DNA from: Candidatus Nitrotoga sp. AM1P
GTDB taxonomy: Bacteria; Pseudomonadota; Gammaproteobacteria; Burkholderiales; Gallionellaceae
Direction: 5' to 3'
DNA length: 64,000 nucleotides
NCBI RefSeq assembly: GCF_013168275.1
Contig: NZ_AP019547.1
Coordinates: 2,170,001 to 2,234,000, forward strand
Both the position numbers and the translations under genes were made by a program. Below the pieces are notes generated by a model. That model was not told the origin of the DNA and made no database searches. It worked only from the letters and a program-made list of their open reading frames with translations. This document shows, in pieces, positions 14,401 to 35,331 of the stretch. Position 1 is the first letter of the stretch; each line of letters begins with the position of its first letter.

Positions 14401-14958
14401 ATGGCAATTAGCAATATGAAGCTTGGAGAAAAATTGCTATTTGGGGGTTTTGCACTGATTTTCATTATGGCTTTTGCTAGTTGGTTGGTGCTAGAGGTTG
14501 TCAGATCACGTTTGGATAAGCCGATGTACCCAGTACTCCAGTATGAATTCTCCACAAAAGGTATGCGCGGGTCAGAATTATTTCGTACAGCGGGATGCAC
14601 TATTTGTCACCGTGCAATGCGTAACGGTACAAATATGGGGTTGGTTCTCGACGGTATCGGTTCCAAGCGTACCCTTGAATACCTTAACAAGTTTCTAACA
14701 GACCCTGAAGCATCTTATCCTGGAGCGACGATGGATCATGGCCCTCTTAAAGGAGCTGCTTTCGTAGCGAAATTGCCGTCTGCGGATTTGCAGGCGATCG
14801 CTATGTTTCTTTCCGAGTTACGAGCCAATCCAGGGTCTAATGCGTCGCGACTTCCTCCTGTGGGAGGAGAGTCTAAGTTTATTGATGAGATGGTTAGGAT
14901 GTGGGCGCCAGATAGCTGGAAATCTGATTATAAGGATGTACGTGAAGAAGTGAAATGA
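14401..14958 (+). CDS. Membrane-anchored monoheme cytochrome c
   Basis: 185 residues: one N-terminal transmembrane anchor (about 12-33) and a periplasmic cytochrome c domain with heme site CTICH (66-70). It starts MAISNMKLGEKLLF and contains LDGIGSKR; the cytochrome at 26610-27098 shares the MKLGEK start and LDGIGSxR segment, so the two are paralogs. It may play the part of an electron-entry subunit of the nearby oxidase, an inference from topology. The next gene starts 19 bases downstream. Confidence 0.85.
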   Translation: MAISNMKLGEKLLFGGFALIFIMAFASWLVLEVVRSRLDKPMYPVLQYEFSTKGMRGSELFRTAGCTICHRAMRNGTNMGLVLDGIGSKRTLEYLNKFLTDPEASYPGATMDHGPLKGAAFVAKLPSADLQAIAMFLSELRANPGSNASRLPPVGGESKFIDEMVRMWAPDSWKSDYKDVREEVK

Positions 14959-14977: not shown

Positions 14978-15490
14978 ATGATGCAGGAACTAAATGAGCC
15001 TTGGACTCAGGATAAAGAATATACTAAATATACATTGTGGTTTATTTATGCGTGCATTATTTACAGCATAATTGGTTTTTCTTGGGGAGCGTTGATGGGC
15101 GGGGTTCCCACCTTTAGGCACTTTATTAATAGCGGGATACCCGGCCACAGGATCGTTTTAGGGCATACCCATATTAATTTGCTGGGATGGGTGGAAATGG
15201 CTATTTTTGGCGCTGTATATTATCTTATTCCAAGGTTGGTGCGGCGTTCCATCTACAGTCTGCGTTTGGTCAAGATCCATTTCTGGATGCATAACCTTGG
15301 TTTGTTGGGGGTCGTGGTTTTCTTCAGCTCTGCGGGGCTGATTGGTATTTTTATTGAGGACGACGGAGAGTCGGTGGCATCACGCTTCATGTCACTCGCA
15401 GGAATGTTCGGTAGCGTGGTTTTACTGGCTAACATTATCTGGGGATATAATATATACCGTACTTGTAACGGATGGGACCGATCCAAGTGA
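14978..15490 (+). CDS. Four-helix protein matching the C-terminal quarter of cbb3 subunit I
   Basis: 170 residues with four transmembrane helices. From GHTHINLLGW (H63, H65) to the end it lines up with the last four helices of the full CcoN-like protein at 22648-24057: the HxH heme-ligand motif, YYLIPRLVRRSIYSLRLVKI against YLGLQTLMKRKLYSLTLGNL, then HFW. In complete oxidases this HxH ligates heme b3 and heme b; here the CuB helices are absent, so it cannot form a binuclear centre alone. Known families contain such short COX1-like proteins, but their role is unclear. Its stop overlaps the GTG start of the next gene. Confidence 0.75.
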   Translation: MMQELNEPWTQDKEYTKYTLWFIYACIIYSIIGFSWGALMGGVPTFRHFINSGIPGHRIVLGHTHINLLGWVEMAIFGAVYYLIPRLVRRSIYSLRLVKIHFWMHNLGLLGVVVFFSSAGLIGIFIEDDGESVASRFMSLAGMFGSVVLLANIIWGYNIYRTCNGWDRSK

Positions 15491-16026
15491 GCAAAAGAAT
15501 ATTATGGCTGCTCGTTGTTTCTTGCTTTGTTTGTGGTTGCGGCGAACAGTTTTCTGCATGGAGCATGAGTGGAGCTTCAATGGGAATGTTGCAGAAGGGT
15601 ATGCTAGCGCCAAGTTTGCCCACCAAAACGTTGGTAGATGTCGGCGGGGACATGAGCAAAATGACGACATATCGTCAGCCAGATGCGCGCATGTACCAAT
15701 ACTCTTTGGATAAAGCATTGGCGCTCAATAAACCTATCGTCTTGGAGTTTGCCACACCAGGCCATTGCACTGTGTGCGATGGTCAATTGCAAATAATGAA
15801 AGCGTTATTGGAAAAATATCAAACTCAGGTACTTTTTTTGCATATGGATCAATACCAAAATCCGCAAGCATTCAAGGCATATCGTGTGATGGGTGATCCT
15901 TGGACTTTCTTTATAGATGATAAAGGTGTCGTTAGCGGTGTTCAGCCAGGACGCATGTTGCATGGCGAAATGGAAGCGGGAATTAAAAAGATCCTCAGGG
16001 TGGGAACAGAAAGTCACGCGGGTTGA
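15487..16026 (+). CDS. Thioredoxin-fold envelope protein with CxxC, possible lipoprotein
   Basis: 179 residues. It starts at a GTG overlapping the previous stop (GTGA) with GGATGGG upstream; an ATG at 15472 is the alternative. A short hydrophobic signal contains several cysteines (VSCFVCGCGE), one of which may be lipidated. A thioredoxin-like domain follows with VLEFATPGHCTVC (CxxC at 94-97) and the cis-proline region VMGDPWTFFIDDKG. Proteins of this form reduce apocytochrome cysteines or deliver copper to oxidases. Its place between cytochrome genes suggests service to this complex. The exact role is not readable. Confidence 0.75.
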   Translation: MSKRILWLLVVSCFVCGCGEQFSAWSMSGASMGMLQKGMLAPSLPTKTLVDVGGDMSKMTTYRQPDARMYQYSLDKALALNKPIVLEFATPGHCTVCDGQLQIMKALLEKYQTQVLFLHMDQYQNPQAFKAYRVMGDPWTFFIDDKGVVSGVQPGRMLHGEMEAGIKKILRVGTESHAG

Positions 16027-16032
16027 TCTAGT

Positions 16033-16515
16033 ATGAGCGATACGCGTTTCAATTTAGTTCAAGACCGCAAAGGCATGATGTGGGATTTACTGTTGTATGT
16101 TCCTACAGTGGTGGCTTTACTGTCAATGGTGCTTAAATTTTGGTATGGTGGAGATGTCAGTTTGGCATATTTGTTTTCGTTTCTGGCCAGTTTCTTTTTT
16201 ATCGCTGGCGCCAACCGCATATTGAAAACCCGGTTAATGTTACTACCTACTGCGCCTATCGCAATTGAAATAGGTAAGCAGGGAATTCAAATTATTATGC
16301 GCAATGGAGAGCAAGTGGGGTTGGTGAAAGACTTGCGAATATACGCGGATTACTCAGGCCGTTCATTCGGTCTGGCGGGACTGAATAGATTAGATGAACG
16401 CTTGCAATTTGTATTTCATAAAGGACAGTTTTCCAATTTAGAAGCTTACCAAGCAATTCAGGAAATGCTCAAATTAGCTAGCAGTCCGTCGGATTTTCCC
16501 CCAATTAAAAAATAA
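16033..16515 (+). CDS. Conserved-looking membrane protein of unknown function
   Basis: 160 residues: two closely spaced transmembrane helices (about 17-38 and 45-63), then a cytoplasmic domain rich in beta-strand pattern (IAIEIGKQGIQIIMRNGEQVG) and a helical tail. It starts seven bases after the thioredoxin-fold gene, so it is co-transcribed with the cytochrome genes. I do not recognise the family; the layout resembles small PH-like domain membrane proteins. Confidence 0.6.
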   Translation: MSDTRFNLVQDRKGMMWDLLLYVPTVVALLSMVLKFWYGGDVSLAYLFSFLASFFFIAGANRILKTRLMLLPTAPIAIEIGKQGIQIIMRNGEQVGLVKDLRIYADYSGRSFGLAGLNRLDERLQFVFHKGQFSNLEAYQAIQEMLKLASSPSDFPPIKK

Positions 16516-22020: not shown

Positions 22021-22302
22021 ATGCAGAGAAAGTCAATACCATCTAGATCCTTTTGGATTATTATAGTTGCGGGATTTGTAACGGGCATGGGTAATGGTAG
22101 CGTGTTCGGAGCTGCCCTTATGTGCTGGATGGGGCGTGGAGGATTCGCAGATTGGGGTGGAGTGGGTGCTGGTTCATATATACCGACAACATTTAATGGC
22201 TTTATGAGTTTCTGTATGTTTGTATTTGGCTTTGCGTTTACTTTAATGTTGGCGCTTGCTTTAAAGCGTCACGATACGGTCGAGAATTCCCGTCATGCTT
22301 AA
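22021..22302 (+). CDS. Small two-helix membrane protein at the head of the oxidase genes
   Basis: 93 residues: helices at about 10-33 and 60-82 with a glycine-rich loop (GRGGFADWGGVGAGSYIPTT). A strong GGGGAGGAAAT ribosome binding site stands before the ATG. It is the first gene of the block leading to the CcoN-like subunit and is probably co-transcribed. No family recognised. Confidence 0.6.
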   Translation: MQRKSIPSRSFWIIIVAGFVTGMGNGSVFGAALMCWMGRGGFADWGGVGAGSYIPTTFNGFMSFCMFVFGFAFTLMLALALKRHDTVENSRHA

Positions 22303-22367
22303 GATTGGAGCTCGCTTGCGAAATAATGATTGTTTTGAAAACTGAGACCTTAAATAAGGAGGGGAAT

Positions 22368-22568
22368 ATGCTTGTAATAATAGCGGGGGTGTGCTGTATG
22401 CTCTTGGCATTTTCGAGTATGTGGTTATCGTGGTATGTATTAATGCCGCATAAACGTATTCATTTGCCGGATGGTGATGTTTTGGGGAGCACGGTGGGAG
22501 GTACCGTGGGCGAAATAATTTCTGAAGAAATAGCTTCGATAGTGCCGCATAAAACATCAAAAAAATAA
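22368..22568 (+). CDS. Small single-helix membrane protein
   Basis: 66 residues starting MLVIIAGVCCMLLAFSSMWL, one transmembrane helix followed by a soluble tail (GSTVGGTVGEIISEEIASIV). The ATG at 22368 follows AAGGAGGGGAAT, an excellent ribosome binding site, so it is preferred to the in-frame ATG at 22305. It lies between the preceding small gene and the CcoN-like gene. Unknown function; possibly a small oxidase subunit. Confidence 0.6.
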   Translation: MLVIIAGVCCMLLAFSSMWLSWYVLMPHKRIHLPDGDVLGSTVGGTVGEIISEEIASIVPHKTSKK

Positions 22569-22647
22569 AATCGTTGAAATTATAGTGGGAATAACACTAA
22601 TTGCAGTAGCCATTGAGCCTGCCTAGAACTAAAAAAGGAGATGCAGC

Positions 22648-24057
22648 ATGATTCTTAAATATTTGTTTGCCAAAAATGAGGCTATCCCGGTCGGTTCGGC
22701 GGCGATTTTCTTTGGGTTTTCTTCCATTTTATGGTTTGTAATCGGGACTGGGTTGGGATCATTTAATGCGGCTAAGCTTGCATTCCCTGATTTTGTAACA
22801 GGGACGGAAATGTTTGCCTTCGGTCATATGCGTCAAGTGCACGTGCTAGCAGTAATTTTTGGCTGGATTTCGATGGCATTTGCAATGGCGATGATGTATA
22901 TCACGCCGATACTGGGGAATACTAGGCTGTGGTCAGAGAAGCTTGGTTTGTGGAATTGTATGATGTGGAATGTCTCCTTGGCTTTAGGTTTGACACTATT
23001 GTGGATGGGAGTGACCTCCGGGCGCGAGTATTCTGATTTTCCATGGCCGCTGGATCTTGCTGTCGCTGCATTTATAACTATTCCATTGGCGGTTAATGTA
23101 TGGATGACCATAATAAAACGTCGCACCCAAGGTATTTATACGACTAATTGGTTTTTTGCAGCATCAACTTTCATGTTGATTATCGTGTTCTTGGTTGGAA
23201 ATCTGCCGGAGTATTTTCATCTTACAGGCCTGACCGAGGCCTACATGACCTGGTGGTTTGCGCATAACGTTTTGGGATTGTGGATTACTCCCGTTGCTGC
23301 AGCGATTGCCTACTATGTTATTCCAAAGGTGACTGGTAATCCATTGTATTCTCACCGCATAGGTCACTTACACTTTTGGTCGATTGTTGTGTTTTATTCC
23401 ACCCCGGCCGCGCATCATTTAATGTCTGCCCCCTTGCCTGAATGGCTAAAATCTTTCGCTTCAGTGGAGGGTGTTTTGATTTTGGTGCCAGCGATTGCAT
23501 TTGTGTCGAACATACTCTTGACCATGCAGGGTAAGTGGAACATGTTTGTCGAGAATCTTGAGGTGCGTTTTACTGTGGTCGGCGTATTGCTGGCTATCCC
23601 ACTCAACATGCAAGGTGGTTTCCAGCAAACACGATCAATCAACTGGTATATTCACGGCACAGGTTGGATGGTGGCACACGCGCATCTTGCTTTGTTGGGG
23701 TTCTCAACGTTTCTTGAGGCTGCAGCGGTCTATCTTGGCCTGCAAACATTGATGAAGCGCAAGCTGTATTCATTGACGTTAGGAAACCTGCATTTCTGGT
23801 TGTTGTTAATTGGATTCAGCACCTATTGGATATCAATGACGATTGCTGGGTTAATTCAGGGTGCTGGTAAAATCTACGAGGTGCCATACATCGATGTCGT
23901 GATCGCCGAGCATCCTTATATGATCGCTCGTTGGTTAGGTGGTACCATGGTATTTTCTTCAACCATTCTTTGGCTATACAACATGTGGATGACTGCGCGT
24001 GAAGGTACTGTTATTCCGGCCGGACGTATGCCACATGAATTGGCCTACGAACGTTAA
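22648..24057 (+). CDS. ccoN: cbb3-type heme-copper oxidase subunit I (CcoN-like)
   Basis: Catalytic subunit of a C-family heme-copper oxidase reducing oxygen at a heme b3-CuB centre in the inner membrane. 469 residues, twelve helices. Ligands by alignment to known CcoN: H65 (heme b), H206 in WWFAHNVLG (CuB), Y250 (active-site tyrosine of the C family), H256 and H257 in TPAAHHLMS (CuB), H344 (heme b3) and H346 (heme b) in VAHAHLALLGF. Spacing is almost that of canonical CcoN, and the tyrosine argues against NorB. A strong AAGGAG precedes the ATG. CcoO follows 35 bases later. No CcoP gene is seen in the window. Confidence 0.9.
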   Translation: MILKYLFAKNEAIPVGSAAIFFGFSSILWFVIGTGLGSFNAAKLAFPDFVTGTEMFAFGHMRQVHVLAVIFGWISMAFAMAMMYITPILGNTRLWSEKLGLWNCMMWNVSLALGLTLLWMGVTSGREYSDFPWPLDLAVAAFITIPLAVNVWMTIIKRRTQGIYTTNWFFAASTFMLIIVFLVGNLPEYFHLTGLTEAYMTWWFAHNVLGLWITPVAAAIAYYVIPKVTGNPLYSHRIGHLHFWSIVVFYSTPAAHHLMSAPLPEWLKSFASVEGVLILVPAIAFVSNILLTMQGKWNMFVENLEVRFTVVGVLLAIPLNMQGGFQQTRSINWYIHGTGWMVAHAHLALLGFSTFLEAAAVYLGLQTLMKRKLYSLTLGNLHFWLLLIGFSTYWISMTIAGLIQGAGKIYEVPYIDVVIAEHPYMIARWLGGTMVFSSTILWLYNMWMTAREGTVIPAGRMPHELAYER

Positions 24058-24092
24058 ACTTGTAACTTTAAGCTAGGATCTGGGAGGAAATA

Positions 24093-25055
24093 ATGAATTT
24101 TAGAGAGTATAGGATTGGTTCCAGAGCGTTTGGATTAGCATTTGGGTTGTCGATGAGTATTACATTGTTTTTTCCAAGTTTTGATCTCGCAGCTTCAATT
24201 AGCTCTGAGGTCGGCCTAGATAAGCAATTGACTTCGGGGTGGGACTCGGGCTGGCAAATTGCAGATCCAGTGCTGAAAGGGTTGAATAAGCCATTGAAAG
24301 TGCTGGTCAGAAAAGATCCAAAAACCGGTGAGCCGATGGAGCCGGTGTATGCTTATGTATATCCTGCAGGAACGTCTTTGCCGAACGGAGTGACTCATAC
24401 TGCTAACCTGGGTAAAGGAGTTGAAGAGCTTAGTGTCAAGCAAGGTCGCATAACAGAAGCGAAAAAGGAGAGCGGTGCTGTATTCCTGATTAAGAAGAGT
24501 GACCAATTGCTGACTTTTGAGGACAAGCCACTTTCTTATATGGAAAATGCGACAGCCACGAAGGGATGGACTCCAGATGAGGTTTTAAAACAAGCTGTAG
24601 ATTCAGATATATTGCACGCCGGATCTGGAAAAACCATGTTTGTACGAGAAGGTTGTTGGTGGTGTCATACATTGTTGCCTGAACAAACGCAAGATTGGCA
24701 GGTGTTTGGTGCTCCCCCGATGTTGGGTGATTTTAATGGGGAATCTCCCACTGCGTTTGGATCTGACCGCAAAGGACCAGATTTGCTGCATGTAGGATCG
24801 CGCAATTCGTCTAGAGAGTGGATGATGCTGCATTTCTTTAATCCGCGTTTAGTGCAACCGCATTCCATCATGCCGCGTTTTGATTATTTATGGGGCGAGG
24901 TTGATGCTGATGGTAAAAAAATTGATTTCAAAAAATGGCGTTCTGAGTACGATGAGTATCGGGAAGGTAAAATCACTACCCCTCCTGATGTGCCTATGTA
25001 TGCTAAAGATAGTGAAATTCGAAAATTGATTGATTTTGTTGTAAATCTGAAATAA
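24093..25055 (+). CDS. ccoO: Monoheme cytochrome c subunit of the cbb3-type oxidase (CcoO-like)
   Basis: 320 residues. One N-terminal transmembrane anchor (about 12-34), then roughly 140 residues not found in ordinary CcoO, then the CcoO-type heme domain: GKTMFVREGCWWCHTLLPEQ with CxxCH at 188-192, GSDRKGPDLLHVGSR, and the Met ligand in PHSIMPRFDYL (M260). Ordinary CcoO is about 200-240 residues, so the insert is distinctive. It passes electrons to CcoN on the periplasmic side. It lies directly downstream of ccoN and 17 bases before the next gene. Confidence 0.85.
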   Translation: MNFREYRIGSRAFGLAFGLSMSITLFFPSFDLAASISSEVGLDKQLTSGWDSGWQIADPVLKGLNKPLKVLVRKDPKTGEPMEPVYAYVYPAGTSLPNGVTHTANLGKGVEELSVKQGRITEAKKESGAVFLIKKSDQLLTFEDKPLSYMENATATKGWTPDEVLKQAVDSDILHAGSGKTMFVREGCWWCHTLLPEQTQDWQVFGAPPMLGDFNGESPTAFGSDRKGPDLLHVGSRNSSREWMMLHFFNPRLVQPHSIMPRFDYLWGEVDADGKKIDFKKWRSEYDEYREGKITTPPDVPMYAKDSEIRKLIDFVVNLK

Positions 25056-25072
25056 TTTAAGGGGGACATAAA

Positions 25073-25738
25073 ATGACTTGGGTTTTTAATGCTCCACTGG
25101 TTAGTTTGTCAGTTGATAATACTGTAGAACGAAGTAAAGTACTTTGGGAAGCTGAGGATCTTGGTGGTATGACAGAGGATAACAATCGTTTGCCTGTACC
25201 TGTTGTTATTCTTGTCTTTTTAACAGTCGTAACGGCATTCCTGACTACTATTCCTCTTTGGGGGCAGCGTCCAACAGCAGCTATTTACGTTGATTATATT
25301 AAAGCTATGGACACTCCTGAAATTCAGTCGATACAAGAAACCCAGGGTGATGATGCTGCAATGAAGCGTATTGTTGAAATTAATAAAGGCAGTCCGTTCA
25401 ACGCTCAGCAAGGTCGACATCCAGTTAGTATGGATGATTTGCGTGTTATCAAGCCTCAAATTGAGGAAATAATGAAGCTCCCAGATGTGGATCTTAAGGA
25501 TTACACTGTTGTAGGGCCAGAGGTGAAAATTGCTAATTTTGAGGGCAATTATCGCCCTAATGGCAAACGAGAGCGCCAACAGCCTTGGTGGGATAAGGGG
25601 TACACGATTGACTTGTTTTATCTTACGATGTTTTTTCTTGGTGTAACAGTCACAGTGAAACGGTTACCACCATATCAGTGGCAGCCTCGCCATCACGATA
25701 GTGATCCTCGTCACGGTGATAGACGACATAACGTTTAA
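25073..25738 (+). CDS. Two-helix membrane protein with PxWGxRP signature, His-rich tail
   Basis: 221 residues: cytoplasmic N-terminus, a helix at about 42-62 ending TTIPLWGQRP, a periplasmic domain of about 110 residues, then PWWDKGYTIDLFYLTMFFLG as the second helix and a C-terminus rich in His (QPRHHDSDPRHGDRRHNV). The protein at 33966-34397 shares the same signature around shorter loops, so they are paralogs. A GGGGGA ribosome binding site stands before the ATG. Probably a structural or assembly subunit of the oxidase; the His tail might bind metal. Unknown family. Confidence 0.6.
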   Translation: MTWVFNAPLVSLSVDNTVERSKVLWEAEDLGGMTEDNNRLPVPVVILVFLTVVTAFLTTIPLWGQRPTAAIYVDYIKAMDTPEIQSIQETQGDDAAMKRIVEINKGSPFNAQQGRHPVSMDDLRVIKPQIEEIMKLPDVDLKDYTVVGPEVKIANFEGNYRPNGKRERQQPWWDKGYTIDLFYLTMFFLGVTVTVKRLPPYQWQPRHHDSDPRHGDRRHNV

Positions 25739-25765
25739 TTTATAATTATATTCAGGAGGCATCAA

Positions 25766-25900
25766 ATGATAGATTTTGATTATGGACCCCCCATAATGGC
25801 GGGAGTAGTGGCGATTGGATTTTTGGCTCCATATTTTTATAGTTTTTTTGTGGATCATTATGATAAGAAAAGTCCTCAAATAAGCTCGAAAAATAGCTAG
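25766..25900 (+). CDS. 44-residue single-helix membrane microprotein
   Basis: MIDFDYGPPIMAGVVAIGFL, then APYFYSFFVDHYDKK and a polar tail: one transmembrane helix with a basic C-terminus. A strong AGGAGG lies six bases before the ATG, 27 bases after the His-tail protein, and a terminator follows. It resembles small cbb3 subunits of the CcoQ sort in size and place, but the sequence does not prove it. Confidence 0.65.
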   Translation: MIDFDYGPPIMAGVVAIGFLAPYFYSFFVDHYDKKSPQISSKNS

Positions 25901-25926
25901 TTGCTGTTGCAAACTAAACGAGCAAG

Positions 25927-25959
25927 GTATGCCGCCGTAAAGGCGGCATACTCTTTTTT
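25927..25959 (+). terminator. Intrinsic terminator inside the oxidase cluster
   Basis: A perfect 10-bp stem (25927-25936 with 25942-25951), loop GTAAA, followed by CTTTTTTT-like run (25952-25959). It closes the ccoN-ccoO transcript; downstream genes start again 13 bases later and may depend on readthrough or their own promoter. Confidence 0.92.
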
Positions 25960-25971
25960 ACAAGGATATGA

Positions 25972-26292
25972 ATGGAGATAATTATTTATTCATTTCTTGA
26001 AGGGTTTAATGTAGTGAGTGTTATAAATGTGTTAGCTAGCACGGCATATTCACCAAAATTAGATCTAAGCATAGAAGGGATGCGCAGTCAGCAATTTAGC
26101 ACAGGTGTGTTTTTTTTTATGTTGCTGGGAGTGTTGGTGTTTTCTGGCATCGTATATATGGTGATGTTCGGAAATCATGCGCCAAAAAAGATGAGGACTG
26201 GCGAAAAAATGATGTTTGCCCTGATAATTGTGGGCATCATAGTTGCAGTTATTTTTGGCGGATTGCAAATGCTGGGCGGAAATCTTTACTAG
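25972..26292 (+). CDS. Two-helix membrane protein, unknown
   Basis: 106 residues. Hydrophobic segments at about 45-65 and 80-102, separated by a basic loop (NHAPKKMRTGEKMM); the N-terminal 30 residues are moderately hydrophobic. ACAAGGAT precedes the ATG. First gene after the terminator that ends the ccoNO block. No family recognised. Confidence 0.5.
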   Translation: MEIIIYSFLEGFNVVSVINVLASTAYSPKLDLSIEGMRSQQFSTGVFFFMLLGVLVFSGIVYMVMFGNHAPKKMRTGEKMMFALIIVGIIVAVIFGGLQMLGGNLY

Positions 26293-26334
26293 ATTGTCTA
26301 TTGGGGTTGTTACCTAACGATCGACGGAGAAAAT

Positions 26335-26613
26335 ATGGAAAACTATTTGCAATCGTTGGATGATGGATGGTCTATTTACCTTTGGCTAATTGTTGGTGGA
26401 CTTATTATTATTGCTGTTATTTATTGGATTAGGTGGGGGATGAAGAATGAGCAGTTTGATGAAGACATTAAGTATCTCGTATTTGATGAAGACGATAAAG
26501 AAAAAATGTCACCCCAAGAATATGCCAAAAGTCGCGAGGTGAATGCTGCACAGATACAAAGTCGGGAGCGTGTATTAAAGCGTCAGGAAAAAGAAAAGCA
26601 ACAGGCCCAATGA
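26335..26613 (+). CDS. ccoS: CcoS/FixS-like cbb3 oxidase assembly protein
   Basis: 92 residues: one helix (about 15-33) followed by WGMKNEQFDEDIKYLVFDED, which matches the hallmark of CcoS (helix, then W-A-x-K/R-x-G-Q-F-D-D-L-x-x-P-x-x-R-x-L-F-D-D), and a longer charged, helical C-terminus than usual. CcoS is needed for heme insertion into CcoN. Its stop overlaps the ATG of the next cytochrome gene by four bases. Confidence 0.65.
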   Translation: MENYLQSLDDGWSIYLWLIVGGLIIIAVIYWIRWGMKNEQFDEDIKYLVFDEDDKEKMSPQEYAKSREVNAAQIQSRERVLKRQEKEKQQAQ

Positions 26614-27098
26614 AACTAGGCGAAAAAATTGTTTTTGTAGTAATTGTAATTGTGGTTATAGGTTTTATGGGGCGTAATTTATGGCGCCTCAATACTATTC
26701 AGGAAGTCGATAAAGGTATTCCTTATTACAGCACTGCATCAGCTACTCTCGAACGTGCTGCTATGGATATTTATCGTCAGCAAAATTGTAAAAGTTGTCA
26801 TTCATTGTGGACGGTTCGTGATCTGATGAAAGCTGTTCCCGCCCCAATACTGGATGGCATCGGTTCCTTGCGCAGCGAAGACTGGTTTTATCAGTATTTT
26901 TCAGCCATAAATCCTCAGGCAATATTGCCCTCCCGTTTGAAGAGGGAATATCAAATGCCATCTTATGCACAACTGCCGGAAAGTAAACGACGACTTTTGG
27001 CACGCTATATGGCAAACCTGAAGGTGCAAGATTGGTATCTCGAAGAAACACGTAAAGCCGAACATGAAATACTTACAGGTCAAGAATATCGTCCATGA
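26610..27098 (+). CDS. Membrane-anchored monoheme cytochrome c
   Basis: 162 residues: N-terminal anchor MKLGEKIVFVVIVIVVIGFM and a periplasmic cytochrome c domain with CKSCH (60-64); the likely Met ligand is in REYQMPSYAQL. It shares the MKLGEK start and LDGIGSxR segment with the cytochrome at 14401-14958. Translationally coupled to the CcoS-like gene upstream and to the next gene (four-base overlaps on both sides). It may substitute for CcoP as electron entry point. Confidence 0.85.
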   Translation: MKLGEKIVFVVIVIVVIGFMGRNLWRLNTIQEVDKGIPYYSTASATLERAAMDIYRQQNCKSCHSLWTVRDLMKAVPAPILDGIGSLRSEDWFYQYFSAINPQAILPSRLKREYQMPSYAQLPESKRRLLARYMANLKVQDWYLEETRKAEHEILTGQEYRP

Positions 27099-27565
27099 GT
27101 AAACTGCCGCTTTTGACCAAAGCCCGATTTTTAAGCGGGGTCGTGGCCGTTATCATGGGTTGTTCGCTGAATTACTTTGGCGACCGCTTACTTGGGGTAA
27201 AAATCGAGTTATTTCGTGGCATTCTTGACTTTAATGGGCTGTGGGTTATAGATATGCTGGTGTTGCCTTTTTTTGTTGGCGTATTGGTTGCTGTTATTTT
27301 TGGACTTGGCGGCAAATGGCTATGTTATTTCCCTCCTTTAATCGTTAAATCAATTAGTTACGTGGAAAGTGTTTATTTAAATCCAGTTCCGGAAGATGCA
27401 TCGTTAATTCCTTTTGGCCTGTGGGGTTTGCTTGTAACTGTTGTTATGACTGCGGCTGCATTCGGTGGGGTTATGGGTGAAATTATGGTAAAAGGCACTT
27501 ACGGAAGAAGCCCTCGAGATCTTTTACATAAGCAACGTTCTGATATCAGAGAGAGTGATATTTAG
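27095..27565 (+). CDS. Multi-helix membrane protein, unknown
   Basis: 156 residues with about four hydrophobic segments (10-28, 45-70, 78-92 partly, 105-130) and a basic, charged C-terminus. Its ATG overlaps the preceding cytochrome stop by four bases, and the next gene begins at the base after its stop, so it belongs to the same operon. I do not recognise the family. Confidence 0.55.
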   Translation: MSKLPLLTKARFLSGVVAVIMGCSLNYFGDRLLGVKIELFRGILDFNGLWVIDMLVLPFFVGVLVAVIFGLGGKWLCYFPPLIVKSISYVESVYLNPVPEDASLIPFGLWGLLVTVVMTAAAFGGVMGEIMVKGTYGRSPRDLLHKQRSDIRESDI

Positions 27566-28630
27566 ATGGCAGTCACTTCTGCGAACAGAAAAACTGTACT
27601 TCCTGCTGTAGATTATGCACGTCGTAAACGTTACTTATCCGCTACTTTTGTAATTTGCTTTGTCTTGTTAGCAATTGGAATTACTCTGTATGTAGTGAAT
27701 CAGGGATTTGAACATATGGGTGAAATGCGCACGCGTGCAACTTACGAATTGAAAGATGAATTATTACACATACGCGCTGCTGGTGAAGATTTGGTATTGC
27801 ATAGGGAGCATGAGGCCGAAAAAAATCATGCGGCAGGATATAGTGCTACAGAAATTGAAAGTTTGCTCTCTAAAGAAGAGTGGCTCGAAATAAATAGTAT
27901 GGTATTAATCCCGGAGGGAGCTTTTTCGATGGGTACAGATTTAGAGCGTGCAGATGTACAAAATCGTCCGCAGCATACAGTTAAATTACCTGCTTTCTGG
28001 ATAGATAAATATCCTGTAACTAACGCACAATATGCCAAATTTGTAGTCGCTACGTCACACCGTCCTCCGCTGAACTGGAAAAAAGGAAAATTTCCTGAAG
28101 GTGAAATGTTGCGCCCCGTTACTATGGTGTCTTGGCATGATGCAACAGCATATGCTAAGTGGGTAGGTAAGCGACTCCCTTCTGAAGCGGAATGGGAAAA
28201 ATCCGGGCGCGGAACAGATGGTCGGCGTTGGCCGTGGGGTAACAAGATGGAACCGGAGCGGTTGAATACTTATTACAATGTGGGTTCGACAACCAACGTG
28301 AATGCTTATCCAAATGGAATTAGTCCATATGGAATAATGGATATGGCGGGTAACGTAAATGAGTGGACAGCGGATGATTTTGTCCCTTATCCTGGATCTG
28401 ACGCGCCGTCGGATTTGTTTAAAGGAAAAGTCGTGCGGGCGACAAATAAAAAAGAGGTTGACATTGTGCCGACTGGAGGAAGCTATAAAGTATTGCGTGG
28501 TGGCTCATGGAAGGGGGATCCATTCTCCTCCGCAGTATTTCATCGAAATTTTGCTTTTGCAAACTACGCTTCCGATTTTTTTGGTTTCCGCTGTGCAAGT
28601 AATATCGAGGTAAAGGGCAAAAAAGAGTGA
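27566..28630 (+). CDS. Membrane-anchored SUMF/FGE-sulfatase domain protein, NirV-like, without FGE cysteines
   Basis: 354 residues: a transmembrane helix (about 22-44), a charged linker, then a formylglycine-generating-enzyme fold from about residue 110 (MVLIPEGAFSMGTD, FWIDKYPVTNAQYAKF, RLPSEAEWEKSGRG, MDMAGNVNEWT, KVLRGGSWKGD, FGFRCA). In true FGE the RGGSW motif is followed by the copper-binding cysteines; here the stretch RGGSWKGDPFSSAVFHRNFA has none, so sulfatase activation is unlikely. Similar domains occur in NirV next to nitrite reductases. Likely a structural or assembly factor. Coupled to the genes on both sides. Confidence 0.8.
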   Translation: MAVTSANRKTVLPAVDYARRKRYLSATFVICFVLLAIGITLYVVNQGFEHMGEMRTRATYELKDELLHIRAAGEDLVLHREHEAEKNHAAGYSATEIESLLSKEEWLEINSMVLIPEGAFSMGTDLERADVQNRPQHTVKLPAFWIDKYPVTNAQYAKFVVATSHRPPLNWKKGKFPEGEMLRPVTMVSWHDATAYAKWVGKRLPSEAEWEKSGRGTDGRRWPWGNKMEPERLNTYYNVGSTTNVNAYPNGISPYGIMDMAGNVNEWTADDFVPYPGSDAPSDLFKGKVVRATNKKEVDIVPTGGSYKVLRGGSWKGDPFSSAVFHRNFAFANYASDFFGFRCASNIEVKGKKE

Positions 28631-28881
28631 AAGTGCTCAAAATTTTGTGGCGCCTGGGAATGTTTCTTGGTCTCACATTGTCTTCAGCAAAAATGAGCTA
28701 TGCAGTGGATAGCTACCGTTTTCTTCACGTGCATATTGATACGCTCTGGTTTATTTTTTTATTTCTGCTAGGTATACTTTTTGTTCCTTTTATTCTGATT
28801 GCGGTGTTGACATGGCATTACGCGGAAAACAAAACCGATCCGAAAGAGCAGCAGGCAGTTTCAGTCGAGAATGATAAATGA
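28627..28881 (+). CDS. Small membrane protein, unknown
   Basis: 84 residues from a GTG start that overlaps the previous stop (GTGA). The N-terminus looks like a signal peptide or first helix (about 4-25, ending SYAVD), followed by DSYRFLHVHIDTLWF and a second helix (about 37-62), then a polar tail. The start choice rests on the coupling. Unknown family. Confidence 0.5.
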   Translation: MKVLKILWRLGMFLGLTLSSAKMSYAVDSYRFLHVHIDTLWFIFLFLLGILFVPFILIAVLTWHYAENKTDPKEQQAVSVENDK

Positions 28882-29267
28882 TGGCGAGTGCAAAGGGTGG
28901 CTCTTATCCATATCTATTGGCATGTTGGCTGATTACAGCGGTGTTATTTTTAATGCTTGCTCTACCAATCGCGCGAGCTGAGGATAACGATCAGAAAGGC
29001 AATAGTTCTAAGGTGATGGAGGCGTTTGAACAGCAGGCCAGCCAGATTAAAACAGATAGACCTTCAACCATCCAAAAAAAACATTTGACCATGTTTTTGT
29101 TGGGTGTACCACTGTTAATTTTGCTTCTAATTACTGGCGCGCTGGGTATTGCTATGGGAATATATGGTAAGCAAGTATTCGTGCTACATATGATTTCTGC
29201 CGGGCTTACTATCACACTGGCTTTTGTACACGCAATTGTGGGTGTTATTTGGTTTTATCCCTTCTAA
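28878..29267 (+). CDS. Membrane protein, unknown, end of operon
   Basis: 129 residues: a hydrophobic N-terminus that could be a cleaved signal (ending ARAED), a polar segment of about 35 residues, then two helices (about 70-92 and 98-125) containing VLHMISAGLTITLAFVHAIV, where two histidines could bind heme or metal. ATGA overlap with the gene before it. It ends the operon that begins at about 25972. Confidence 0.5.
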   Translation: MMASAKGGSYPYLLACWLITAVLFLMLALPIARAEDNDQKGNSSKVMEAFEQQASQIKTDRPSTIQKKHLTMFLLGVPLLILLLITGALGIAMGIYGKQVFVLHMISAGLTITLAFVHAIVGVIWFYPF

Positions 29268-30005: not shown

Positions 30006-32621
30006 ATGTTGGTGAAAGAGTTACAATCATTAATCCAAAAACGTAGTTACTGGCCGCTGGCAGTGCTGTATGGATTATTTGGTATGACTAGCGTGGCATA
30101 CGAAGTGCTGTGGGCGCGCATACTTTCTTTGCAATTCGGAGTGAGTATTTTTGCGGTGGTACTGACTGTCGCCACATTTATGGGAGGGTTGGGAGCGGGA
30201 AGTTTATTTGCGGTACATCGGGCTTCCCAAATCAAAAGACCCTTGTTGTTGCTTGCTGCATTGGAAGGGGGTATTGCTGTTTACGCCTTACTCTTGCCGC
30301 TGATTCTGCAAATGACATCGGTGGGAATGGAAGGTGCGGCGGCTCAACTTTCGTTATTTCAATGGTATGGTCTTATTGCTAGTGTTGCATTGTGTTTGTT
30401 GCTGCTCCCAGCTTTTATTATGGGGGCAGGATTTCCGTTGATTTTAGTATCTTTGGGAAATAGGCCGGAGCGACTGGGGAAGATTTACGGTTTAAATACT
30501 CTAGGTGCTGCTTGTGGTGCACTGTTACCACTTTGGTTGCTGCCTGCTTTGGGTTGGGTCTGGGCAGTCAGAGTGGTGGCCGCGATTGGATGTGTTGGAG
30601 TTGTTGCGCTGTTGGTGTTTTCATTGCGGTATACCACCGCGCAGATTACAGAGAAAAATATTAGAGCAAACCGACCACGTCTAACTTTTCTGCTTGCTTA
30701 TGCTGCAATCGGTGCGGCAAGTCTGATCTTGCAAATAGCTTGGACGCGCCTGTTCGGCATGGTGATGCTACGCACCGAGTACGTGTTGGCAGTGATTCTG
30801 GCGTCATTCCTGTTGGGCATCGGTATTGGCAGCTTGATCGTGCCACGCCAGCACAGGCAGGCATGGTTTGTAATCTTACCCATTGTTGCTGGAGGATTTA
30901 CCGTATTAAGTTTGTGGTTGTTACCTGCACTTTCGGCATGGGTGGAGCGAGCTGAGTTTGCTTCTTTATTTGAAGCATTGAGCATGCAGGGGCTACTACT
31001 CGTGCTGGTAACTCTGCCAGTTACCGTGGCACTTGGAGCTTGGCTACCTTTATTAAACGGCCGCTCGAATGGCGGTGGGGTATGGTTGTATGGAGCTAAT
31101 TCATTGGGTGCCGCGCTCGGTGCGATAGTTGCCGGAGTGGTATTGATTCCGCTTTGGGGCAGCGCTGCTACGGTGGCGATGGCAGCTTCGGTATTGTTGA
31201 TTGTGGGTTTAACTTGGGCGCAGTCGCGTACCGCCTGGCTTGCTGTACCGTTTTTTTTAATGGCAGCATGGCCAGTTGTAAAGTTACCGCCAGTTAATAT
31301 GTTATTGCCGCAGGCGCAAGCGGGAAGCAGGGATTTATATTTTTACGAAGACGCCATTTCGATGACTCATGTGGTGGAGCAACAAGACGGGCAGCGTGTG
31401 TTGTTGACTGACTTACAGAGAATGGATGCTTCAACTGATCCTACGGCGGTGTTCGTGCAGTCCAATCAAGCACGTCTTCCGTTGCTGTTACACGAACAGC
31501 CTCGTTCGGTGCTATTTCTCGGGCTAGGTACTGGAATTTCTGTGGCTGGTTCGCTAGCGTTTCCAAATTTAAAGCGTAGTGCTGTTGAACTATCACAGGG
31601 TGCGATTGATTCCGCAGCGAGTTGGTTTGCCCCATTAAATCGCAACGTGTTGCGTCAAACTAAAGTGGAACGTGACGACGTACGGCATTTTTTAAGCGCG
31701 AGCCGGGATCAATACGACGTCATAATAGGTGACGTGTTTCATCCGGATTTGGCAGGTTCAAGTTCTTTATTATCAGTCCAGCAATTTCAGCGCGTGCGTA
31801 ATCGCTTAGGTGAAAATGGACTATTTGTTCAGTGGTTGGCACTCAATCAACTCGACAATAAATCTTTGAACGTAATTTTTAATAGCTTTCGACGGGTTTT
31901 TCCAGATGCGCAAATATTTCTCGATGGAATGCATCTAGCCTTGGTTGGCCCACAGCAGAAATTTATGGGCGCGCAGGGGTTGTTGCTTAATTTGCAGCGT
32001 TTGTCCTTGGAACAACAAGATGAGGTGACTGCAGGCGAAGGGGGGTGGACTTGGCTCGGACGCTATTGGGGGCCACTGCCGGTTAGCCAAGAGCAGGTGC
32101 AAGACGAGTGGTCGCCAGTGATTGAATTTCGCCTGCCGCGCGCGCGCTACGCTGGTGAATTAGATGTGCCAAAATTATTACAGATTTTGCTTAAAACCAG
32201 GCCGAAAATGGAAGCTGCTGCAAATTTGCTTGGTATTCGTGACCACGATAAAGAGACTTTCGAACGTGCTTACGTAGCCAGCGAGCTGATGACGCGAAGC
32301 TGGCTTGCGGCTGCGCGTGGCGCAACGCAACAGGCTAATCAGCTGACGCACCTGGCTTATGAGGCGAATGCAAAAGATCGCTGGATTGCTTATGCGTTGG
32401 CTGATAATATGTTTTCATCTTTAGCACAAGCGCGCGAGCATGGTTTGAGTGAAAAAGAGGCGTTGCAGAAAATTTTGCGTTTTAATCCATATCACGTAGA
32501 AGCGGTGCGTGCATTGTGGCGAATTGAGCGGAATGCTGGTGATGTGCATGCGGAATTGAGCCGTGTGCGCTTGCTGGAGTTGAGTCCGCTTGACCGTGAA
32601 GCAAATACGACAGGAAATTAA
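30006..32621 (+). CDS. Multi-helix membrane protein fused to spermidine-synthase-like domain
   Basis: 871 residues. About twelve to fourteen helices up to residue 430 (transporter-like), then a soluble domain of the aminopropyltransferase/methyltransferase fold: SVLFLGLGTGISVAGSLAFP (nucleotide loop), AVELSQGAIDSAASWF, VERDDVRHFLSA, YDVIIGDVFHPDLAG. A helical, TPR-like C-terminus follows. Family members are annotated as fused MFS/spermidine synthase, but polyamine synthesis is unproven for them. It overlaps or abuts the CcoG gene, so it shares that operon; a link to oxidase function is an inference. Confidence 0.8.
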   Translation: MLVKELQSLIQKRSYWPLAVLYGLFGMTSVAYEVLWARILSLQFGVSIFAVVLTVATFMGGLGAGSLFAVHRASQIKRPLLLLAALEGGIAVYALLLPLILQMTSVGMEGAAAQLSLFQWYGLIASVALCLLLLPAFIMGAGFPLILVSLGNRPERLGKIYGLNTLGAACGALLPLWLLPALGWVWAVRVVAAIGCVGVVALLVFSLRYTTAQITEKNIRANRPRLTFLLAYAAIGAASLILQIAWTRLFGMVMLRTEYVLAVILASFLLGIGIGSLIVPRQHRQAWFVILPIVAGGFTVLSLWLLPALSAWVERAEFASLFEALSMQGLLLVLVTLPVTVALGAWLPLLNGRSNGGGVWLYGANSLGAALGAIVAGVVLIPLWGSAATVAMAASVLLIVGLTWAQSRTAWLAVPFFLMAAWPVVKLPPVNMLLPQAQAGSRDLYFYEDAISMTHVVEQQDGQRVLLTDLQRMDASTDPTAVFVQSNQARLPLLLHEQPRSVLFLGLGTGISVAGSLAFPNLKRSAVELSQGAIDSAASWFAPLNRNVLRQTKVERDDVRHFLSASRDQYDVIIGDVFHPDLAGSSSLLSVQQFQRVRNRLGENGLFVQWLALNQLDNKSLNVIFNSFRRVFPDAQIFLDGMHLALVGPQQKFMGAQGLLLNLQRLSLEQQDEVTAGEGGWTWLGRYWGPLPVSQEQVQDEWSPVIEFRLPRARYAGELDVPKLLQILLKTRPKMEAAANLLGIRDHDKETFERAYVASELMTRSWLAAARGATQQANQLTHLAYEANAKDRWIAYALADNMFSSLAQAREHGLSEKEALQKILRFNPYHVEAVRALWRIERNAGDVHAELSRVRLLELSPLDREANTTGN

Positions 32622-32628
32622 CTTAATT

Positions 32629-33969
32629 ATGGCCAACGGCGTCAAGTATAAATCCATTTCCAGTATTCCAGTTAAGGTTATCGGCACGGTTGTAGGTTCC
32701 AAGCCAGCTCCTTCTGAATTCCGTTGGAAGCGGCGATTGGTGCAGATGCTGGCTTTGATCCTTGTTGTACTAATTCCGGCTAGTGGCCTATTCCGAATTG
32801 ATCCGGGTGCGGCCGCTTTTGTTGTGCTTGATAGACAGATCTGGTTGGCTGATTTTTCCTTGGTAACCGGGGCATGGCTCTTTTTGGCGAGTAGTTTGGT
32901 GTTACTGTACTCGACTGCAGGTACTGTGTTTTGCGGCTGGGTTTGTCCTCAAAATAGTATGGCCGAGTGGGCTAACAATCTTACGCACAAACTATTAGGT
33001 AAACATGCCGAGGTAAGCTTGACTGGCGAAGCGCCGCGTGTGGCGGGCGCCAAGAATAAAATCATGAATTGGATGCTGCTTGGCGTTGCATTTTTGGGAG
33101 GAGCTATGTTTTTTGCGCTAATCCCATTATTTTATTTCTATCAGCCAAGTGTGGTGTGGTCTTTTGTAACACTGCAAGAAAATACCAAGTTGGCAGGATC
33201 ACTGCATTGGATTTACGCAGTATGTGTCGTGATCATTTTCATAGATATTGCATTAATAAGACATTTTTGGTGTCGCTACGCCTGTATTTACAGAGTTTGG
33301 ATGCATTCGTTTAAAACCAAGCAGACTTTGCATATAGCATACGATGCCAGCCGCAGTGATGAATGCGTCAAATGTAATTATTGTGTCACTTCTTGTTTTA
33401 TCGATCTGGATCCGCGTAAAACTGATATTTATGACAGTTGTATCAATTGCGGCGATTGCGTTGATGCTTGCAATCGCTTACATAATAAACAAGGAGTTCC
33501 TGGGTTATTACGTTTCGATATGCTTGAGCGCCCGAATAAAAGTGTAAATAAATTTAGGGGTGTCGCAATTTCTTTGTTTGCCCGAATGGGTTGGACGTCT
33601 CCCTTTGTGGTATTAGGTGCGGTGATGTTTATTTGGGGATTATGGTCATATCAACCTTATCATGTAGTAGTGGGCAATGCGGATATCCAGCAGGGTCGCA
33701 CGGTTCAAGAATATCGCATTGCGCTTTCTAATAAACTGTATCACTCAGCGGAGTTGCATGTGCGTGTGTTAGGTTTGCCACCGGGCAGTTATCAGCTTAG
33801 CGCTGAAAACGTTAAATTATCACCGGTCGGGCGAGAATCGCTTATTCTTTCTATCGCGCAGAATTTGCCACGAGGTTTATATTCTGTTGTAGTTGAAGTT
33901 TCTGCAGGTGATACCTGGATGGGCCGATTCCCTGTTCAACATTTTTCCGAACAAAGGAGAAAATTATGA
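32629..33969 (+). CDS. ccoG: cbb3 oxidase assembly protein, 4Fe-4S (CcoG/FixG/RdxA family)
   Basis: CcoG is a membrane ferredoxin-like copper reductase needed for cbb3 oxidase assembly. From the ATG at 32629 it has 446 residues: helices near 38-58, 78-100, 148-175 and 192-212, the CGWVCPQ motif (103-108), and two 4Fe-4S motifs CVKCNYCVTSC (C246, 249, 252, 256) and CINCGDCVDAC (C271, 274, 277, 281). A further helix and an Ig-like C-terminal domain with LPRGLYSVVVEV complete the family plan. A TTG 39 bases upstream overlaps the preceding gene and is a less likely start. Confidence 0.93.
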   Translation: MANGVKYKSISSIPVKVIGTVVGSKPAPSEFRWKRRLVQMLALILVVLIPASGLFRIDPGAAAFVVLDRQIWLADFSLVTGAWLFLASSLVLLYSTAGTVFCGWVCPQNSMAEWANNLTHKLLGKHAEVSLTGEAPRVAGAKNKIMNWMLLGVAFLGGAMFFALIPLFYFYQPSVVWSFVTLQENTKLAGSLHWIYAVCVVIIFIDIALIRHFWCRYACIYRVWMHSFKTKQTLHIAYDASRSDECVKCNYCVTSCFIDLDPRKTDIYDSCINCGDCVDACNRLHNKQGVPGLLRFDMLERPNKSVNKFRGVAISLFARMGWTSPFVVLGAVMFIWGLWSYQPYHVVVGNADIQQGRTVQEYRIALSNKLYHSAELHVRVLGLPPGSYQLSAENVKLSPVGRESLILSIAQNLPRGLYSVVVEVSAGDTWMGRFPVQHFSEQRRKL

Positions 33970-34397
33970 TTGCCAGCGATATAAGTGAAAAAAATCGAGA
34001 TTTATCGCAAGTAGATGAGCCGCGCTGGGGTGAGAAGCCGGATGACCATTTTGGTTATGCTTCTGATGAAGAACGTATGGCCAAACGTGGGCTTGAAGAT
34101 TGGGAGCTGGTAGAAACTATTCCTGAGTCGCAAAAAAAGATACCCTACTGGTTTGTAGGAGTCACTGTTGCGGTGTTACTGGTTGCGGTGGGTTTGAGTT
34201 TCCCCTTTTGGGGTCTCCGTCCGGGTGATGAGCGCCCTTGGGTGGACTGGGGGTTCATCATCGCTTTATTTTATGTTGCTGCCGGAAGCGCTTTTGTTCG
34301 TTTCATGGTAAATCTATATGGATCTTCAATTGGCGGTACGCTGGATTCAGATAAAAATAAAAAAAAACAATCTCATGAACTCAATGCAGAAAAATAA
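33966..34397 (+). CDS. Two-helix membrane protein with PxWGxRP signature (paralog of the 25 kb protein)
   Basis: 143 residues: acidic cytoplasmic N-terminus of about 58 residues, helix ending LSFPFWGLRP, short loop, then PWVDWGFIIALFYVAAGSAF as second helix and a basic tail. The signature FPxWGxRP … PWxDxGxxIxLFY is shared with 25073-25738, which has a much longer periplasmic loop. ATGA overlap with ccoG. Likely associated with the oxidase or its assembly. Confidence 0.6.
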   Translation: MIASDISEKNRDLSQVDEPRWGEKPDDHFGYASDEERMAKRGLEDWELVETIPESQKKIPYWFVGVTVAVLLVAVGLSFPFWGLRPGDERPWVDWGFIIALFYVAAGSAFVRFMVNLYGSSIGGTLDSDKNKKKQSHELNAEK

Positions 34398-34803
34398 TTC
34401 GCATATACCGGTTAACCGACCGCAGGGAACAAATGTAAAATATATTAATCTGTTTTTTTCGGTATTGTTAGTAGCATGTAGTGGAGATCGAGTTGTGGAT
34501 ACGCAACCGCAAAAGTGGCAGGGTGCGGAGGTGCGAGTCGAATCCAGGCCTAGCCCACCGCGTCCTGGAGTAAATGAATTTTTGGTGATAGTGACTGGTA
34601 AACGTGGACCGGTTCATGACATTATGGTTTCGGTGCGAACTGACGACCAAGATCAATGGATACAGGCAATACAAGATGGGGAGGTAGGTGTTTATCGTAG
34701 GGCGGCGAAAGTTGCTCTAGGCACTAGGTCTGTGTTACAGGTGCAAATAAAACACAATGGCGCAGAAGGCGTTCTGCGCTTCCCGTTGAATTTATCGCCT
34801 TAG
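34375..34803 (+). CDS. Probable FixH-like lipoprotein
   Basis: 142 residues from the ATG at 34375 (alternative 34384), overlapping the end of the preceding gene. A hydrophobic stretch with lipobox LLVACSGD is preceded by an unusually long polar N-terminus. The periplasmic part (WQGAEVRVESRPSPPRPGVN, FLVIVT, beta-rich) resembles FixH/YtkA-type beta-sandwich domains that accompany CcoG. The likeness is by pattern only. Confidence 0.5.
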   Translation: MNSMQKNNSHIPVNRPQGTNVKYINLFFSVLLVACSGDRVVDTQPQKWQGAEVRVESRPSPPRPGVNEFLVIVTGKRGPVHDIMVSVRTDDQDQWIQAIQDGEVGVYRRAAKVALGTRSVLQVQIKHNGAEGVLRFPLNLSP

Positions 34804-34812
34804 CAAACAGTC

Positions 34813-35331
34813 TTAAGGACTCGGTTCGTTATTTTTAAGTGTGAATAAGACGTTAGCAAGATAGATGCAAAAACCTGTTGCCATGATCATTCCTGAGCTG
34901 GCCACGATGGGTCCATAAAAGCGGTGTACTTGTGCCATCGCTTGTAGGTTATTGGCGAGTAATAAATTTCCTTCCAGGATACCAAATACCACCTGCGTAG
35001 TATAAAAATAAAATACTCCAATCGTTGTCCACCAACATGAATGGTTGATTAAACGTATAGAGTAAATAGCCTTTCCGCTAATAATGGGTAACAAATAATA
35101 CATTGTTCCCATTGCCAATATTACTAGCCCTCCGATTAAGTTTATATGTGCATGTGCCAAGGGATCTATCATGTGTCCAGGGCCACCATAAGGACTGCCG
35201 ATAGAATCCAGCCAGGCTCGTATTGATGGAATTACTTGCAACATGCCATGCATTGCACCGAAAAAAAAAGAAATTGTGGAAATCAACAAAAACTTAATTA
35301 AATGGGAGAATTCAGTGTTGTTTAAACGCAT
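34813..35331 (-). CDS. Second four-helix protein matching the C-terminal quarter of cbb3 subunit I
   Basis: 172 residues on the minus strand, with four to five helices. It keeps DPLAHAHINLIGG (H60, H62), YYLLPIISGKAIYSIRLINH and a following aromatic helix, the same order as in 14978-15490 and in the last four helices of the full CcoN-like protein. Its N-terminal helix also has a histidine (AMHGM, H28) that could serve as an axial ligand. It lies downstream of a microprotein gene on the same strand and converges on the CcoG operon. Confidence 0.75.
   Translation of the reverse strand: MRLNNTEFSHLIKFLLISTISFFFGAMHGMLQVIPSIRAWLDSIGSPYGGPGHMIDPLAHAHINLIGGLVILAMGTMYYLLPIISGKAIYSIRLINHSCWWTTIGVFYFYTTQVVFGILEGNLLLANNLQAMAQVHRFYGPIVASSGMIMATGFCIYLANVLFTLKNNEPSP

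Follow-up and report, generated by a model that had tools for sequence, protein, structure and literature searches.

How does an oxidase of the cbb3 type work when the gene for its third subunit, the diheme cytochrome CcoP, is nowhere to be seen? This question is raised by a 64,000-nucleotide stretch of the genome of Candidatus Nitrotoga sp. AM1P (the window; positions 2170001-2234000 of contig NZ_AP019547.1, here C1), in which a first-pass annotation had described a cbb3-type core without CcoP amongst unrecognised small membrane proteins at positions 22,021 to 29,267. One Nitrotoga genome paper, in its available sections, gives only 'cbb3 type' (PMC6050957). We favour, with a probability of about two in three, an interpretation in which the locus encodes a C-family oxidase whose CcoP has been dismantled and which serves nitrite respiration as the sole complex IV, with the membrane anchor of CcoP kept as the product of an open reading frame (ORF) starting at position 25073 and separate cytochromes delivering the electrons. 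Coordinates below refer to the window and its forward strand unless stated otherwise, and genome-wide searches covered the 3.0-Mb single-contig genome that holds it.

The catalytic subunit gene, ccoN (22648..24057), scores 260 bits with COX1, over the cut-off, and solved cbb3 CcoN chains align to its product at E 1e-61. In an alignment of the window protein with 109 relatives, the ligands of heme b and heme b3-CuB and the active-site tyrosine (H65, H206, H256, H257, H344, H346 and Y250, corresponding by alignment to H60, H207, H257, H258, H345, H347 and Y251 of P. stutzeri) are invariant in all 110 rows, as the first-pass annotation had stated for the window copy. The score with the ccoN equivalog TIGR00780 is 227 bits, below the required 583. 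In an IQ-TREE analysis that combined 33 rows of this clade with 17 canonical rows and four from a third group (54 in all), the clade came out as a single 100/100 group, separate from canonical CcoN and on a very long branch. The closest named relatives are from Candidatus Nitrotoga (95-99% identity), and across 397 genomes of the phylum the identity amongst the matches listed drops from 69%, for copies and fragments of this clade, to 34% or less. The adjacent ccoO (24093..25055; FixO 66 bits, over the cut-off) encodes a monoheme subunit whose CXXCH and methionine ligands (C188, C191, H192 and M260) were retained in 67 of 67 rows, again as proposed. The extra segment ahead of its heme domain, put earlier at some 140 residues, amounts to about 123, since residue 178 aligns to residue 55 of 3mk7_B.

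The CcoN-CcoO enzyme is the one complex IV (cytochrome c oxidase) that this Ca. Nitrotoga possesses. All three COX1 matches in the genome fall inside the window and comprise the full-length CcoN and two short four-helix proteins, and the genome holds one FixO and one cytochrome bd; a profile search found no second full-length COX1 and no second FixO in it. By sequence, the enzyme falls within a C-family clade that lacks CcoP and for which O2 reduction and proton pumping are predicted, with O2 reduced at the heme b3-CuB-Tyr site of CcoN and one heme c held by CcoO. Members of the C family reduce nitric oxide (NO) in vitro, according to the available text of PMC8780969, and two periplasmic cavity residues listed in the consulted part of PMC3431322, E122 and R57, are kept in CcoN, with Asp in place of a third, E125, so an enzyme that is chiefly an NO reductase, or a bifunctional NO/O2 enzyme protecting a nitrite oxidizer, was considered. 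This is highly improbable: no other cytochrome c oxidase was found in this aerobe, the CuB histidines and the tyrosine are retained, and the NCBIfam matches of CcoN include no NO reductase model. The match of CcoN to NorB of PDB 4xyd reaches no better than E 1.3e-5.

A diheme CcoP is absent from the genome, where the best match to TIGR00782 scored 33.8 bits against a cut-off of 179.95 and FixP_N gave zero matches at E<=10. This absence extends to relatives. Within a sample of 80 family genomes, 30 carry this CcoN and 52 carry canonical ccoN; 21 of the 30 have neither canonical ccoN nor CcoP, and the other nine hold both ccoN types. CcoP (scored at >150 bits, with seven of the 51 positives below the curated cut-off of 180) is present in 51 genomes, every one with canonical ccoN and none of them amongst the 21 with this CcoN alone, while a single genome with canonical ccoN (G417) has no CcoP. 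The genomes thus hold no ccoP that is conserved elsewhere alongside this ccoN. Amongst 18 genomes of the window's own genus, this CcoN is present in 14, in one case as a fragment. Three others (G453, G462 and G474) show no CcoN match and the last (G465) combines CcoP with canonical ccoN alone, a pattern that reflects either incompleteness or real oxidase swaps.

The claim that the cluster lacks CcoP is nevertheless probably only half true, because ORF 25073 (25073..25738) looks like the CcoP membrane anchor minus its hemes. Its product contains no CXXCH and scores no Pfam match, and the family carries a motif, G[IM]xE[DN]NNxLP, just ahead of a transmembrane (TM) helix, resembling CcoP. When 82 family rows were compared by hhalign with an N-terminal segment of 140 residues from the CcoP proteins of 14 canonical loci, the two matched across this motif at 84% (E 7.6e-6), compared with at most 4.4% for 30 block-shuffles and 0.5% for the reversed alignment. 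A smaller first alignment had given 75%, with 12 other cluster families reaching no more than 24%. The best Pfam family for two orthologs of Zeta type is FixP_N (E 8.8e-5 and 0.0039). Like the CcoP/FixP N-terminal domain (PF14715), ORF 25073 has G-[IM]-x-E-x-N-N-x-L-P ahead of a TM helix, but it has no heme domain, has a second, C-terminal TM helix and is missed in its window copy by the Pfam model. Counting along the alignment, Glu35 of ORF 25073 corresponds to residue 49 of 3mk7_C, the P. stutzeri CcoP Glu49 that we take to be the entry of the proton path, a role reportedly described by Lee, Gennis and Adelroth in 2011. In the interpretation that we favour, the heme-free protein would present Glu35 where the single proton channel opens to the cytoplasm. 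This identification appears to be new; we found no published account of a split CcoP anchor in the open-licence literature.

Separate cytochromes would take over the delivery of electrons, and the cluster encodes three candidates. The first-pass annotation had counted two membrane-anchored monoheme cytochromes; both exist, at 26610..27098 (CXXCH invariant in 77 rows) and 14401..14958, although the latter lies outside the 22,021-29,267 segment to which they had been assigned. The two are paralogs (hhalign 99.2%, filtered rows). Upstream, 13509..14288 encodes a diheme class I cytochrome c with a signal peptide (Cytochrom_C 75 bits, two stretches), a probable homolog of Cyc1 (Slit_2657 type) with both CXXCH motifs invariant across 59 rows, which is proposed as a soluble electron donor. 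Nitrite oxidation would reduce periplasmic cytochrome c, and we infer an order from the diheme protein to a membrane monoheme cytochrome (14401 or 26610), CcoO, heme b and heme b3-CuB, with the 26610..27098 protein as the candidate relay standing in for the CcoP hemes. Outside the cluster, three molybdopterin oxidoreductase frames of 1169 residues each (C1:1492729, 1623514 and 1929126) are probably copies of the nitrite oxidoreductase alpha subunit, and a cluster judged by eye to resemble alternative complex III lies at C1:2237171-2242365, shortly beyond the end of the window and about 45 kb from ccoN, a position in line with a donor/acceptor partnership with the oxidase.

CcoN itself also departs from the canonical sequence. 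Canonical Y237, S240, Y317 and E323, which we take to line the single proton channel, are replaced by His, Gly, Ala and Gln, respectively, in 110 of 110 clade rows; the comparison set retains them in 21/21, 20/21, 21/21 and 17/21 sequences. I241 is also replaced by His, while T215, Y223, H243 and N289 are retained. This invariant replacement on the channel side of CcoN appears to be new, and suggests that the lower proton channel may have been rebuilt by these four changes (Y237H, S240G, Y317A and E323Q) and by the His gained at 241. Separately, the third CcoN group (L122-L124 and L131; about 33% identical) likewise carries Gln at E323. L122-L124, which come from bacteria of the window's own order, showed no downstream diheme gene and are possibly another CcoP-less branch; L131 has a three-heme gene of 442 amino acids.

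A number of observations weigh against a dismantled CcoP. FixP_N yields no match to the window's own ORF 25073 even at E 10, the FixP_N scores of the Zeta-type orthologs (22.6 and 17.3 bits) are below the Pfam cut-off of 24.9, and a Zeta-type copy retrieved no CcoP in a search of PDB sequences. The hhalign E-values refer to one target, and a two-TM protein encoded at 33966..34397 (52/57 loci), a distant relative that matches the ORF 25073 family at 87%, fails to match CcoP on its own (1.9%). The monoheme cytochromes match CcoO and CcoP domains equally well (for 26610, 88.7% with CcoO and 89.5% with CcoP heme domain 1; filtered rows), and descent from the CcoP hemes is therefore not demonstrated. 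The interpretation also assumes that the CcoP glutamate and the four CcoN residues have the channel roles given above. In addition, four genomes of the genus yield no CcoN of this clade, three of them without any CcoN match and one with canonical ccoN alone, and the mini-HCO/thioredoxin module described below is out of reach in 17 of 54 loci, including Ferrovum L069 and L073, and does not occur within 9 kb in L149. Alternatively, a single co-localised membrane cytochrome c could have taken the place of subunit III, a substitution already proposed for Ferrovum JA12 in the available part of PMC4725956, with ORF 25073 an unrelated new subunit that had acquired its ENN.LP motif by convergence; the 89.5% match of 26610 and the failure of FixP_N on the window copy are compatible with this. 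We consider it unlikely, as the match of ORF 25073 to the anchor far exceeds those of shuffled alignments and other cluster families and, amongst Pfam families, its Zeta-type orthologs match FixP_N best.

The two short COX1 matches are a further unusual feature of the cluster. Mini-HCO (heme-copper oxidase) A (14978..15490; COX1 54.6 bits) and mini-HCO B (34813..35331, reverse strand; 36.3 bits) are predicted to be free-standing four-helix proteins that copy helices IX-XII of CcoN with its two heme-ligand histidines, an arrangement that appears to be new. Mini-HCO A has 170 residues, too few for a complete 12-helix catalytic subunit, and its AlphaFold2 model (pLDDT 86.5) consists of four long helices; all seven Foldseek matches under E 0.001 are CcoN, and the model superposes on residues 300-467 of 8smr_E with 2.4 A over 154 residues. 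It therefore shares with HCO subunit I the fold of helices IX-XII and the HxH motif (H63 and H65), also present in mini-HCO B, but is one third of that protein and lacks the helix VI/VII CuB ligands and the tyrosine. By hand count, the mini-HCO frame was matched in 30 of the 30 family genomes that carry this CcoN and was absent from the remaining 50. Across 299 phylum genomes, mini-HCO A was found at >=59% identity in 40, 37 of which have this CcoN amongst the matches listed; the others, G146, G185 and G196, have no CcoN of this clade amongst the matches listed. Conversely, one of the 38 CcoN carriers, G167, has no mini-HCO A match at >=59%.

Mini-HCO A is followed by a gene for a thioredoxin-like lipoprotein (15472..16026; Thioredoxin_3 25.7 bits) with C99 and C102 invariant in 53 of 53 rows, proposed as a copper/thiol chaperone. 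Other putative assembly factors are a CcoS-like small protein of the cbb3 maturation type (26335..26613; 71/71 loci; FixS E 0.0074, below its cut-off) and a CcoG-like ferredoxin-type protein (32590..33969; 53/57 loci; TIGR02745 109 bits, below the cut-off of 317). A small lipoprotein (34318..34803; 25/80 loci, a raw count over loci of all lengths) is possibly CcoH-like by place only and has no Pfam match over any cut-off. The mini-HCO, CcoS-like, CcoG-like and thioredoxin-like proteins would probably serve heme and copper insertion. Whatever the fate of CcoP, the mini-HCOs could alternatively be heme b redox subunits forming a quinol or reverse-electron-flow branch, with the three-TM protein encoded at 28878..29267 as a second b-heme protein. 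The latter has invariant H104 and H118 (61 rows) and is a possible b-heme protein from its sequence (Ni_hydr_CYTB E 0.0014, below cut-off), and H63, H65, H101 and H105 of mini-HCO A are invariant in 47 rows. Such a branch seems doubtful: H63 and H65 are two residues apart on the same helix, the heme b role is predicted from sequence, and the mini-HCO A gene adjoins the thioredoxin-like gene, as those of assembly factors often do. The spacing of 14 between the two 28878 histidines is that of bis-His b hemes, and there is a weak cytochrome b561-type match.

Every cluster gene was compared by tblastn with 80 loci kept from 192 relatives, counting a match anywhere in a locus and only loci long enough to hold the gene. 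The conserved unit extends well beyond the segment first described, to approximately 13509-34803. Present in all eligible loci are ccoO (78/78), ORF 25073 (74/74), 26610 (69/69) and two genes for conserved small membrane proteins at 22021..22302 (76/76; TGMGNGSVFG) and 25972..26292 (71/71). Further members encode a single-TM small protein (22368..22568; 77/80), whose start was shifted from 22305 because conservation covers only the part from Met22, a membrane protein (27095..27565; 63/68), a small membrane protein (28627..28881; 58/61), the 28878 protein (58/61), a conserved two-TM protein (16033..16515), and a fused major facilitator superfamily/spermidine-synthase-like protein of 871 amino acids (30006..32621; NF037959 91 bits; 54/57), a usual member of the cluster. 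The SUMF-type protein noted earlier is indeed encoded here (27566..28630; FGE-sulfatase 188 bits; 58/61); it is membrane-anchored and shares the FGE-sulfatase domain, over the cut-off, with the formylglycine-generating enzyme (FGE) family, but its only cysteines are C31 and C343, leaving it without the catalytic pair at what we take to be its position, and it may have a structural role. The block recurs in the order diheme cytochrome, monoheme cytochrome, mini-HCO, thioredoxin-like, 16033, 22021, 22368, ccoN, ccoO, 25073, 25972, ccoS-like, monoheme, 27095, SUMF, 28627, 28878, spermidine-synthase-like, ccoG-like and 33966.

The small ORFs are real, mostly syntenic genes under purifying selection. 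Their ratio of nonsynonymous to synonymous substitution rates (Ka/Ks) against other Nitrotoga was 0.04-0.30 where Ks was finite, apart from 28627 against L010 (0.60); across the neighbourhood the range was 0.01-0.30, with that exception and two artefacts. Several cluster genes overlap by four bases. Conservation is incomplete in places. Amongst 54 loci with >=8 kb upstream, mini-HCO A (scored at >=45% identity), the thioredoxin-like gene and 16033 occur in 37, the diheme gene in 48 and the monoheme gene in 46, and the part from SUMF to ccoG is absent nearby in L043, L051 and L054 (3-4 of 57 loci). In the last two, which are short and rearranged, the rest of the cluster is joined in a new order that still keeps together ccoN, ccoO, 25073, the cytochromes, mini-HCO, 25972, and the CcoS-like, thioredoxin-like, 16033 and 22021 genes. 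Both modules lie within approximately 4 kb of each other in L143-L147, five of eight longer stretches inferred to be from Zetaproteobacteria, although L144 has no downstream half. Of the other three, L149 shows no upstream module within 9 kb and L148 none within 3 kb, and the L142 stretch stops at ccoN. Given the transposase remnants at 18.2-20.3 kb and the occurrence of parts of the cluster elsewhere in some loci, the small ORFs might be unrelated neighbours brought together by chance, but the near-identical order in distant genomes, the four-base overlaps and the purifying selection refute this almost entirely. The first-pass view of a non-canonical C-family oxidase without diheme CcoP, amid conserved unrecognised membrane proteins, is upheld, whereas the supercomplex that it suggested is a prediction. 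Between the halves of the cluster, the window has remnants of several insertion sequences (18197-20318; HTH_38, DDE_3, HTH_23 and rve_3 pieces) without a match in the 80 loci, and a PMT-like membrane protein gene (20330-21793, reverse strand) matched in 41 of 80. In L143 this position holds a multicopper-oxidase-like gene (NirK-like by eye) with diheme and small cytochrome c genes; L147 has a gap of similar length, possibly the same insert.

Compared with canonical cbb3 CcoNOQP (3MK7, P. stutzeri), the window enzyme shares the CcoN fold, heme and CuB ligands, tyrosine and the retained T215, Y223, H243 and N289, together with a monoheme CcoO and CcoG- and CcoS-like helpers, but has approximately 30% identity, no diheme CcoP, an insert in CcoO, four channel replacements and about ten extra membrane genes. 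Related accounts are already in print. The consulted portions of the literature describe subunits I and II only in Ferrovum JA12, with a co-localised cytochrome suggested as a substitute for subunit III (PMC4725956); two Sideroxydans ES-1 cbb3 clusters that differ in their subunits, of which the proximal is increased on Fe(II) and the distal on thiosulfate (PMC8788666), with a cyc1 homolog beside a cbb3 cluster; proximal and distal ccoN in the Gallionellaceae pangenome (PMC10734462), a pair that also appears in an account of Zetaproteobacteria (PMC7029218); and ccoNOP in Mariprofundus (PMC3179512), where the third gene may be one of these monoheme genes. The CcoP-less cbb3 of these iron oxidizers very probably belongs to the same clade, and Ferrovum loci L069 and L073 bear the ccoN half of the cluster. 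In the available parts of the Ferrovum, Sideroxydans and Zetaproteobacteria accounts, only subunits I and II and co-localised cytochromes are named, without mention of a split anchor or mini-HCOs, the latter not having been a subject of our literature search. The cluster is common to Gallionella, Sideroxydans, Ferrovum, Gammaproteobacteria and, by inference, Zetaproteobacteria; because iron oxidizers and Gammaproteobacteria share it, it is not tied to Nitrotoga or to nitrite, contrary to the suggested link with the special respiration of this organism.

More tentatively, the clade as a whole may have divided the tasks of subunit III, such that the anchor acts as proton gate only, interchangeable small cytochromes bring the electrons, the CcoN channel is rebuilt to match and the mini-HCOs build the heme-copper centre, giving a different proton-per-electron yield for lithotrophs that live on weak donors such as nitrite and Fe(II); we regard this as possible rather than probable. 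In this Nitrotoga, nitrite oxidation would end in O2 reduction by this enzyme, and by homology neutrophilic and acidophilic iron oxidizers may rely on it in the same way. Because the published label, in the source sections available, is simply 'cbb3', energy models may take its electron entry and proton pumping to be canonical. If CcoP has been dismantled and the channel rebuilt, energy yields would need new measurement, and the clade would offer a natural separation of the electron and proton roles of CcoP, with its recurring 'hypothetical' genes as candidate subunits or assembly factors.

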